Under the pieces are notes generated by a model. It did not search any database. It was not told the DNA's origin and saw nothing but the letters and a program-made list of their open reading frames with translations. A stretch of 48,726 nt of DNA from contig JANXVI010000039.1 in assembly GCA_025351745.1 (NCBI GenBank), forward strand, positions 1-48,726, written 5' to 3'. Of this stretch, positions 42,087-45,719 are shown piece by piece. The number at the start of each line of letters is the position of its first letter. The first letter of the stretch is position 1. Made by a program: the position numbers and the translations under genes. Source of the stretch: Rhodoferax sp. (GTDB lineage: Bacteria > Pseudomonadota > Gammaproteobacteria > Burkholderiales > Burkholderiaceae_C).

Positions 42087-43394
42087 ATGCGCAACACCGT
42101 TCGTGCCACAGGTCTGGGAGCCTTGATGAAGGGCGCAGGCCTGCTGACACGCTTCATACCCATACCGCAACCCACCTTGCTCGTTGGCCCCGGTTCCAGT
42201 GCTCGTCTGGGGCAAGCCATTGCCGGTTTTGGGCACCGCAAGATCCTGATCGTGACCGACAGCATCATCTCCAAGCTGGGCCTGCTCAAAGGCCTGACCG
42301 ACGCACTGACTGCAGGCGGTGCGCAATTCGTGGTGTTTGATGAGATCACCCCCGATGCCCCCATTCCGCTGGTGCAAAAGGGCATCGACTTCTACAAGGA
42401 CCAAGGCTGCGACGCCATCGTCGCCTTTGGCGGTGGCTCGTCCATGGATGCCTCCAAGGCAATTGCTGTGGCGGCTAACAACCCCAAACCGCTGAACCAC
42501 TTGGCGGGTTACCTCAAGGGCCTGCGCACCCCCGTCAAGATTTACGCCGTGCCGACCACCGCTGGCACTGGCTCCGAGGTGACCGTTGCCGCCGTGATTT
42601 CCGACCCGGTCAACCACAAGAAGCTGGTCATCGTCGACCCGCGCATGGTGCCCAAGATGGCCGCGCTGGACCCAACGCTGATGACAGGTCTGCCCCCCCA
42701 CATCACTGCCGCCACCGGTATCGACGCATTGACCCATGCGATCGAGGCCTTTGTCGGCAACTGGACCACCCCCTACTCCGACGGCATGGCGATGTCCGCC
42801 GTAGGCCTTATCTTCGAAAACCTGCGCACGGCGTACAACCACGGCAAGAACCTGGAGGCACGCGAAAAGATGTCGCTGGCCTCCACCTATGCGGGTTTTG
42901 CGTTCACGCGCGCCAACGTGGGCTATGTACACGCCATCGCCCACCAGTTTGGCGGCCTCTACCACACGCCCCATGGCCTGGCCAATGCCATCATGCTGCC
43001 GCTGGTGTTGAAGTATTCGCACCCGGCCATCGTCGACCGGCTGGCCTTGCTGGCGGTGGCCGCCAAAATCGGCACCGAGGATGAAGACAACGACACGCTG
43101 GCACAAAAGTTCCTGGATGCGGTGGACCAACTCAACCGCGATCTGGACATTCCCACCTTCCTGGCGGCGTTGAAGGAATCCGACATTCCCGCCTTGGCCA
43201 AGGCCGCGTGCTGGGAGGCGCACACCGGATACCCGGTGCCGCGCTACATGTCGCAGCAAGTGTGTGAAGATCTGATCCGCAAGGCGCTGCCGCCCAAGGC
43301 CCCCAAGGCCACGACTGCAGCCCCAGCGAAAAAAATGGTAAAAAGGCGGCAGGCTGAAACACGACCCCCCTCGGGGGCACAGAGACCCGCGTAG
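42087..43394 (+). CDS. Iron-containing alcohol dehydrogenase with Lys/Ala/Pro tail
   Basis: TLLVGPGSSARLGQAIAGFGHRKILIVTDSII; DAIVAFGGGSSMDASKAIA; PTTAGTGSEVT; tail KALPPKAPKATTAAPAKKMVKRRQAETRPPSGAQRPA. Confidence 0.92.
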   Translation: MRNTVRATGLGALMKGAGLLTRFIPIPQPTLLVGPGSSARLGQAIAGFGHRKILIVTDSIISKLGLLKGLTDALTAGGAQFVVFDEITPDAPIPLVQKGIDFYKDQGCDAIVAFGGGSSMDASKAIAVAANNPKPLNHLAGYLKGLRTPVKIYAVPTTAGTGSEVTVAAVISDPVNHKKLVIVDPRMVPKMAALDPTLMTGLPPHITAATGIDALTHAIEAFVGNWTTPYSDGMAMSAVGLIFENLRTAYNHGKNLEAREKMSLASTYAGFAFTRANVGYVHAIAHQFGGLYHTPHGLANAIMLPLVLKYSHPAIVDRLALLAVAAKIGTEDEDNDTLAQKFLDAVDQLNRDLDIPTFLAALKESDIPALAKAACWEAHTGYPVPRYMSQQVCEDLIRKALPPKAPKATTAAPAKKMVKRRQAETRPPSGAQRPA

Positions 43395-43411
43395 CGGCGC
43401 ATCGTGGGGAC
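43364..43411 (+). repeat. G/C-block repeat (family 2) overlapping the 3' end of the ADH gene
   Basis: acccccctcgggggcacagagacccgcgtagcggcgcatcgtggggac; aligns with 35974-36020. Confidence 0.55.
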
Positions 43412-43439
43412 AATACAGTAATAATTTGAGGAGCGGTTG

Positions 43440-45719
43440 ATGATGAAAAAAGTAGTGACAGTGACACTGGGTTCGTCCAAACAGGATTTCGAATTCAAGA
43501 CCCAGTTTTTGGGCCAATCCTTTTCGGTGCGCCGCATGGGTGCCGACCAGGACACCGGCAAGGCTTGGGAGCTGATGCGCCGCCAACAGGCCACGGCCGA
43601 TGCCATTGGCCTGGGCGAAATCCCTGACCACTACCATGTGGGCCTGCGTACCGTCATCAACAAGGAAACCCAGCGCCTGACCAATGTCGTGACGCGTGTG
43701 CCGGTGACCACTGGTGCTACCTTGCGCCGCCTGCTGCAGGTGCGCGCGGTGCGCTATGTGCAAAAGGAGCTGGGTCACTACTTCAACAACAACCTGGTGC
43801 TATTCCTCTCGGGCATGCGCAACTACGACATGGCCGTTGCCATGTCCGACTACACCAAGAACCTGAGCTTTGCCGACGCGCTGTTCCAAACCGGCGCACC
43901 CACCATGCTCGGATCGCTGGATCAGCTGGAGCTGTATGCCAAGGGCAGCGAGTTCATGCTGTCGGGCAAATCCGGCCAGATGCTGGAAGCGGCCATGGCC
44001 GGTTTCAAGAACCGCATGGTCGCGGATGTGGTGGCCAAGTCCCACGTCATTGTGGGCACCTTCGCCGAACTCAAAGCGGTCAGCAATGCCACCAACCTCG
44101 AAGGCAAGACCATCATCACCTCCGCGGTAGACGATCAGCGCATGGCCTTCTTCACCAAGTGCAAGGTCAACCTGGTCATCGACGTGTCGCCCAAGTTGTT
44201 CCCCGAAGTGGTGGGTATCAACACCATTGAGGCCATGATCCTGGCCACGCTGGAGAAACCGCAAGAGGAAGTGTCGGACGACGATTTCGATGAAATCCTG
44301 AACGAGCTGGACATCAAGCCGCGTTTGCTGCATCCCACCGGCAAGTTCCGCAACATCCGCCGCTTTGCGTTTGTGATCCACCCCTTAAGCCAGAACTACA
44401 TCCGCAACGCGTTTCCTATTCCGAAGTCCACGCCCAAGTTTGTGATGGACAAGGTCGAGACCTTTGCCGCCCATATGCCACCCATGGTGTATTGCAAGAT
44501 GAGCAACATCGTCTCGCCCACTGGCGCCGAGGCCGAAGGTTGGCTGATCAGCGTTGGCGGCACGCCCAGGGAAATGCTGTCGCGCAGCCCCGAGTTCACC
44601 TACCGTCGCCTGTTGCAAGCCTCCAAGATGGCCGAAAAAATGGGGGCACAAATCATGGGCCTGGGCGCCTTCACCAAGGTCGTGGGCGACGCCGGCGTGA
44701 CCGTTGCGCGCCGTTCCAGCCTGCCCATCACTACGGGCAACAGCTACTCGGCATCGGGCGCGCTCTGGGCCGCTGCCGACGCCATGCGCCGCATGGGCCT
44801 GTTGACCGTCAACAAGCACAACAAAAAAGTCGCCGCCAAGACCATGGTGATTGGCGCTTCGGGCTCCATCGGCTCGGTCAGTGCCCGCCTGCTGGCCATG
44901 TCGTTTGACGAGGTGTATCTGGCAGGTCGCACGCTGAGCAAGCTGGACGAACTCAAAGCCTCCATCCTGAAGGAAACCCCCGACGCCAAGGTCTTCACTA
45001 CCATCGACTACAACGAGTTGCTCGCCGACATGGACATGATCGTCACGTCCACTTCGGGCGCTGGCAAAGAAATTCTGGACATCATGCGGGTCAAGCCTGG
45101 CTGCGTCATCACGGACGTAGCACGCCCGCTGGACCTGCCCGCATCCGATGTGGCCAAACGCCCCGACGTGCTGGTTATCGAATCCGGCGAGATTGATCTG
45201 CCCACCAAAGTCAAGGGCATGAAGAGCATCTCCTTGCCGCCCAACGTGATCTACGCCTGCCTGGCCGAGACCATTGTGCTGGCACTGGAAGGCCGCTTCG
45301 AGGTCTTCACCGTGGGCCGCGACACCGAGTGGGAAAAAGTCAAGGAAATCTACAAGCTGGGCCTCAAGCACGGCATGAAGCTGGCGGCCATCTCGGGCGT
45401 CAACGGGGTCTTTACCGACGAAGCCATTGCCAAGGTTGTCGCGCTGGCCAGAAAGTCTCGCCTAACCTGGAAAGATAGCGCAACAGTCACCAAAGGCAGC
45501 AAGACCGTGGCCGCAAGAGCTCCCGTAGAAAAGGCGCCCGCTAAAGCGGCGACCAAGCCCAAACCACCTGCAAAGACTGCTGCCAAGCCGGTAGCAAAAA
45601 AAGTGGTGAAGGCTCCCGCCAAAAAGACCGCCGTTTCCAAGAAAGCACCAGCGAAGAAAACTGCCTCAGCTCCTGCTGCCACCAAAAAGACAGCCGCACG
45701 TAAACGATCAGCAGCCTGA
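43440..45719 (+). CDS. Large fusion: N-terminal uncharacterised region + long-chain acyl-ACP reductase (AAR)-like C-terminal region + histone-H1/AlgP-like basic tail
   Basis: [16 protein letters not shown]...[87 protein letters not shown]; Rossmann [18 protein letters not shown]; tail [46 protein letters not shown]... Confidence 0.75.
   Translation: [759 protein letters not shown]

Follow-up and report, generated by a model that had tools for sequence, protein, structure and literature searches.

What pathway is served by two adjacent genes, one encoding an iron-containing alcohol dehydrogenase (Fe-ADH) and the other a reductase-like fusion protein, whose products both end in basic tails rich in lysine, alanine and proline? 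The question is raised by positions 42,087 to 45,719 of contig JANXVI010000039.1 from the Rhodoferax sp. assembly GCA_025351745.1, analysed over its whole stretch of 48,726 nucleotides (the window). Our answer is that the pair very probably supplies the fatty alcohol for the synthesis of wax esters as storage lipid. Domain identity, a conserved cysteine and NADP loop, the pairing of the genes, a genome-wide association with wax ester synthase/diacylglycerol acyltransferase (WS/DGAT) and the exclusion of the acyl reductase AcrB within Rhodoferax were all computed directly; the pair's substrate, cofactor and reaction direction we infer.

In the proposed route, a domain of the fusion resembling cyanobacterial AAR (acyl-ACP reductase; ACP, acyl carrier protein) and PigE would accept a long-chain acyl group from acyl-CoA or acyl-ACP on Cys606 and reduce the resulting thioester with NAD(P)H, which would yield a fatty aldehyde. 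The neighbouring Fe-ADH would turn the aldehyde into a fatty alcohol, and WS/DGAT, whose gene lies elsewhere in this genome and shares the operon in some relatives, would esterify the alcohol with another acyl-CoA, forming a wax ester. Less securely, the basic tails, which also occur on WS/DGAT and a nearby phasin, may hold these enzymes at the granule surface and/or the nucleoid.

The paired reductase and dehydrogenase

The features of the locus are these:

42087..43394, plus strand: Fe-ADH gene, iron-containing alcohol dehydrogenase of 435 aa, proposed fatty aldehyde reductase
43287..43391, plus strand: C-terminal, Lys/Ala/Pro-rich tail of the Fe-ADH with one PAKK motif, from sequence and tail statistics
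43443..45719, plus strand: A-clade fusion protein of 758 aa, consisting of N-terminal domain, acyl thioester reductase domain and basic tail
43443..44360, plus strand: fusion N-terminal domain, aa 1-306, with no sequence family and a Rossmann-like alpha/beta model
44361..45467, plus strand: AAR/PigE-type NAD(P)H-dependent thioester reductase domain, aa 307-675, from sequence and structure alignment
44853..44876, plus strand: dinucleotide-binding loop GASGSIGS, aa 471-478, with conserved glycines
45258..45260, plus strand: predicted catalytic Cys606, aligned with AAR Cys294 and PigE Cys296
45468..45716, plus strand: Lys/Ala/Pro-rich fusion tail with PAKK motifs, about aa 676-758, from sequence and family enrichment

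An initial annotation, made from the letters alone, had described an adjacent Fe-ADH and AAR-like fusion, both with basic tails, and the two open reading frames (ORFs) indeed lie on the plus strand where it placed them. Its AAR-like region stands, whereas some details have to be amended: the fusion most likely starts at ATG 43440 or 43443 (759 or 758 aa) and not at TTG 43437 (760 aa), its Lys-rich tail, with two PAKK motifs, is nearer 75-100 aa than the 60 or so first given, and the Fe-ADH end, which reads ...APAKKMVKRRQAETRPPSGAQRPA, had been quoted slightly short. Since the gap between the two same-strand genes is only about 45 bp and GAGGAG stands at about 43428, upstream of the fusion start, the genes are probably co-transcribed.

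The reductase domain belongs to the AAR/PigE-type thioester reductase superfamily. The fusion matches the NCBIfam PigE model (NF053554; reductase part only) with E=3e-54 and 184.5 bits, below the 850-bit equivalog cut-off, and TIGR04058 (AcACP_reductase) with E=1e-18 and 67.6 bits, below the cut-off of 449.7 bits; as both scores fall far short, the protein is related to both AAR and PigE but belongs to neither. Among sequences of the Protein Data Bank (PDB), the hits were 4ppm (PigE, 8e-29) and 6jzq (AAR, 5e-15). An AlphaFold2 model of the fusion (pLDDT 83.9, pTM 0.81) aligned to cyanobacterial AAR 6jzu with E 4e-18 and a TM-score of 0.79 by target length. The match in sequence and fold spans the whole reductase domain, and the sequence hits lie far beyond chance. 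In sequence and structure alignments, Cys606 falls on the acyl-accepting Cys294 of AAR, which has been described as equivalent to Cys296 of PigE (PMC8341465); this cysteine and the loop glycines G471, G474 and G477 are invariant in 37 homologues. Though not an AAR, the fusion probably works like one.

The family assignment of the partner is unambiguous: a Pfam search found the Fe-ADH domains PF00465 and PF25137, and among solved structures those of methanol dehydrogenase, ADH2 and lactaldehyde reductase come nearest. Its domains, together with metal-binding Asp/His motifs, are those of a group III Fe-ADH; D213, H217, H282 and H296 are candidate metal ligands by analogy with the family and lie within motifs kept in nearly all homologues (GIDALTHA, VHAIAH and PHGLAN, present in 58-63 of 64).

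A scan of genome contigs returned more than 500 relatives of the fusion, and the best 80 were examined as loci, with mechanical ORF calls. They come mostly from relatives of Rhodoferax, Sulfuritalea, Rubrivivax, Inhella and Comamonas, with further members in Gammaproteobacteria, Acidobacteriota and SAR324, and a tree of the family has two well-supported clades, A (that of the window) and B, each spanning several classes. Carriage is patchy, as an order-wide sample of 150 genomes yielded a full-length fusion in the source genome only; a class-wide profile search of 370 genomes added one further full-length member. In nearly all betaproteobacterial loci, an Fe-ADH on the same strand lies directly upstream of the fusion, and in five gammaproteobacterial ones (L081, L086, L087, L088 and L092) the adjoining Fe-ADH is divergently encoded. 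The two genes thus co-occur in relatives, and that they stay together even where the locus has been rearranged speaks for a functional connection. In the window, the gene that follows the fusion after a gap of 31 bp encodes a major facilitator superfamily (MFS) transporter (45750-46919, cluster c9), which is kept in several close Rhodoferax relatives and not in more distant ones.

Clade B is also present in 10 of the 13 A-bearing Rhodoferax genomes, the source genome included. Its own B paralogue, 52% identical to the window fusion (G000:C333:28321-31199; L168:10322-13200), overlaps the start codon region of a WS/DGAT gene. Within clade B this paralogue sits on a long branch, and another organism in the bin may be its source.

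Wax-ester synthase and AcrB in fusion-bearing genomes

The link to wax esters comes from genomes more widely. Of the 80 loci, many of them on truncated contigs, 19 have WS/DGAT within 10 kb of the fusion. Comamonas badia DSM 17552 has a single block of genes on one strand, for a hydrolase, a helix-turn-helix (HTH) protein, Fe-ADH, fusion, WS/DGAT (444 bits to TIGR02946) and an aldehyde dehydrogenase (ALDH). The HTH protein (L071:7888-8625), just upstream of the Fe-ADH and overlapping it, itself has a basic C-terminal tail and is possibly a regulator of the block. Sulfuritalea-type loci also hold ALDH, GMC oxidoreductase, lipases, patatin, acyl-CoA ligase and a TetR regulator, some named by Pfam and the remainder from sequence.

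Genome-wide, WS/DGAT was found in all 50 further fusion-bearing genomes, against 5 of 24 order outgroups and none of 14 control genomes. Within Rhodoferax, all 13 fusion-bearing genomes and none of the 24 others gave strong matches (E < 1e-45; Fisher 3e-10, relatedness ignored), and cleaner genomes, such as G175 (99% complete, 1% contaminated), repeat the pattern. Nine fusion-free Rhodoferax carry a single, weaker-scoring WS/DGAT, and eight of the nine have AcrB; in six or more cases (G150, G155, G156, G163, G167 and G183) AcrB lies about 4 kb from that gene. AcrB and the weaker-scoring WS/DGAT make up an alternative wax-ester locus within the genus. Full-length AcrB was found in none of the 13 Rhodoferax fusion genomes, which gave one 297-aa fragment (in G161), and is absent from 39 of the 50 further ones. 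Family searches of the Rhodoferax genomes found no FcrA, and the FarA C-terminal domain in G164 only. In Rhodoferax, this looks like the replacement of one fatty acyl reductase, AcrB, by another, the fusion.

The initial annotation had proposed that the pair could make and reduce a fatty or other aldehyde; for a fatty aldehyde this is favoured by family membership, the conserved cysteine, structure prediction, pairing and WS/DGAT co-occurrence. The predicted aldehyde chemistry survives both of the counter-findings that the annotation had named, as the cysteine is present and invariant and relatives carry the two genes together; the wax-ester pathway, the second paralogue, the phasin and the AcrB exclusion were not part of that account.

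Basic tails and the N-terminal domain

We scored a tail as basic when the last 30 residues had a net charge of at least +7 and consisted to at least 80% of K/R/A/P/T/S/V/G, using as background the other conserved neighbours on the same contigs. Such tails end 53/75 fusions (71%), 28/64 Fe-ADHs (44%) and 6/19 WS/DGATs (32%). In the bin of the source genome, three of the WS/DGATs have basic tails, too. PhaM offers a precedent, the lysines of its PAKKA motifs attaching polyhydroxybutyrate (PHB) granules to the nucleoid, as does PhaF with its histone-like, DNA-binding C-terminus (PMC9049629); the tails described here are likewise basic, Lys/Ala/Pro-rich C termini with PAKK motifs.

The tails might instead have no role in localisation and reflect compositional drift common in GC-rich Betaproteobacteria, an explanation that we hold to be possible, if rather unlikely. 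Neither sequence nor length of the tail is conserved, and it is missing from five gammaproteobacterial fusions (L084, L089, L093, L094 and L095) and from the divergently encoded Fe-ADHs; given these tail-less fusion homologues, the tail is an accessory feature. Drift, however, does not easily account for the 12- to 27-fold enrichment on pathway proteins over other conserved neighbours of the same contigs, where tails end only 4/155 (2.6%), nor for the finding that all four belong to one phasin family of the polyhydroxyalkanoate (PHA) type (PF05597, TIGR01837). In Sulfuritalea-type and Variovorax loci, the tailed phasin is encoded close to the fusion (L051:5769-6314, L055:7224-7811, L058:12398-12856 and L067:9430-10008). 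Enrichment, phasin and the PhaM/PhaF precedent give circumstantial support to tails that, by analogy, may tether the enzymes to granule or nucleoid.

The N-terminal 306 aa of the fusion matched nothing in Pfam, NCBIfam or the PDB sequences, a PDB profile search included, and tblastn against plasmids found no relatives; the class-wide search of 370 genomes turned up no stand-alone copy, only partial matches to the Rossmann or reductase part. Proteins annotated as 'quinate 5-dehydrogenase' may begin in a similar way. Modelled alone (pLDDT 86.6), the domain takes a Rossmann-like alpha/beta fold, and its top TM-scores in the Foldseek list of PDB matches, 0.57 to the carmabin TAD reductase and 0.51 to AAR, stand above the other listed alpha/beta proteins. 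A motif likeness between the halves (such as VPVTTGA against LPITTGN) goes with a profile comparison that is not significant (E 0.04, 4/100 shuffles equally good). Model and motif are only suggestive of a tandem, internal duplication of the reductase fold with loss of the catalytic cysteine; the domain may have a structural role or serve in docking, perhaps as a degenerate copy of that fold. It is conceivable, and we say so tentatively, that the whole constitutes a separate class of wax-ester fatty-alcohol route, in which three kinds of protein with PAKKA-like tails, namely a double reductase-fold protein (its N-terminal copy a degenerate docking platform, its AAR-type copy active), a dedicated Fe-ADH and WS/DGAT, would be assembled with phasin into a nucleoid- or granule-tethered wax-making complex.

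Competing explanations and known systems

Several points weigh against a role in wax-ester synthesis. No WS/DGAT adjoins the pair within the window itself; related genomes are not independent observations; and full-length AcrB is present in 11 of the 50 fusion genomes outside the genus set. An Acr1-type short-chain dehydrogenase/reductase (SDR) is possible as a further source of aldehyde: the family search did not separate Acr1-type from generic SDRs, and similar matches also occur in Rhodoferax without WS/DGAT. The tail-less gammaproteobacterial fusions belong here too, and the AAR-like relative TamH worked with acyl-ACP and did not accept acyl-CoA (PMC9594044), which is why either is possible as the donor. 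Finally, the source is a metagenome-assembled genome (MAG), 91.7% complete and 6.85% contaminated, so that counts within its bin are approximate.

That bin has two divergent copies of a pqiA/pqiB region, one at 46926-48726 of the window and the other on contig C51 (L170:14759-17631), which also carries a tailed WS/DGAT. The duplicate is a sign of mixed strains or species, and the divergent region on C51 indicates that co-binned relatives supply some contigs of the MAG.

The pair could, in principle, run mainly towards degradation or aldehyde control, the Fe-ADH oxidising fatty alcohol derived from wax esters and the reductase-like protein interconverting aldehyde and thioester. Fe-ADHs are reversible, and lipases, GMC oxidoreductase and ALDH occupy the same neighbourhoods in Sulfuritalea and Comamonas; yet the AAR, PigE and TamH relatives are thioester reductases, the AcrB that the pair replaces in Rhodoferax is a synthetic enzyme, and the neighbouring ALDH could handle oxidation alone, all of which makes this reading improbable. 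Least probable of all is an aldehyde or alcohol destined for a different end product (an alkane, an ether lipid, a fatty amine or a secondary metabolite) with only an indirect WS/DGAT link: AAR does feed cyanobacterial alkane synthesis, PigE and TamH feed amines, and other fatty acyl reductases serve ether lipids (PMC11948995), but the recurring partner is WS/DGAT, and neither an aminotransferase nor a biosynthetic cluster was recognised among the conserved neighbours, no genome-wide search having been made for aldehyde-deformylating oxygenase and ether-lipid genes.

As a fatty-alcohol arm of wax-ester synthesis, the pair resembles several known systems and equals none. Cyanobacterial AAR (TIGR04058; 6jzu, 6jzq) shares the C-terminal domain fold, the catalytic cysteine and the dinucleotide loop, at about 22% identity in the structural alignment, whereas the fusion adds an N-terminal domain and a basic tail and is partnered by an Fe-ADH instead of an aldehyde-deformylating oxygenase. 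The N-terminal reductase domain of PigE and that of TamH, from prodigiosin and tambjamine synthesis, provide the best sequence match and the conserved cysteine; they are parts of naturally fused proteins in which an acyl thioester is released in the form of an aldehyde (PMC8341465, PMC9594044) and, fused to an aminotransferase, make amines, while the window fusion has no aminotransferase and its aldehyde would pass to the Fe-ADH. FarA, AcrB, FcrA and Acr1 perform the step proposed for the pair, and AcrB fills its niche in other Rhodoferax, but their architectures are unrelated or only Rossmann-related; the first three make the alcohol directly, and the pair's route would, as with Acr1, need two enzymes (PMC11948995). 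The Lys/Ala/Pro tails recall the PhaM/PhaF tethers, here placed on biosynthetic enzymes, with wax ester in place of PHA as the presumed storage lipid.

The pair is not described in the main text of the two papers found to mention both wax esters and Rhodoferax, and the two-gene fatty-alcohol route is apparently an undescribed version of the wax-ester pathway. In a balanced survey of WS/DGAT-bearing bacteria, FarA was found in 1%, AcrB in 31% and FcrA in 26%, so that for many bacteria predicted to make wax esters no acyl reductase is known; for the two-step route, the same study called the fatty aldehyde reductase unknown (PMC11948995). In several lineages the pair is a concrete candidate to fill both gaps, and its carriers include the cultured strains Comamonas badia, Inhella, Variovorax (sp. 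PCZ-1 among them) and Thioalkalivibrio. For oleochemistry the two enzymes would be a new pair, and they provide a testable example of enzymes of storage-lipid synthesis whose tails resemble the tethers of granule and nucleoid.

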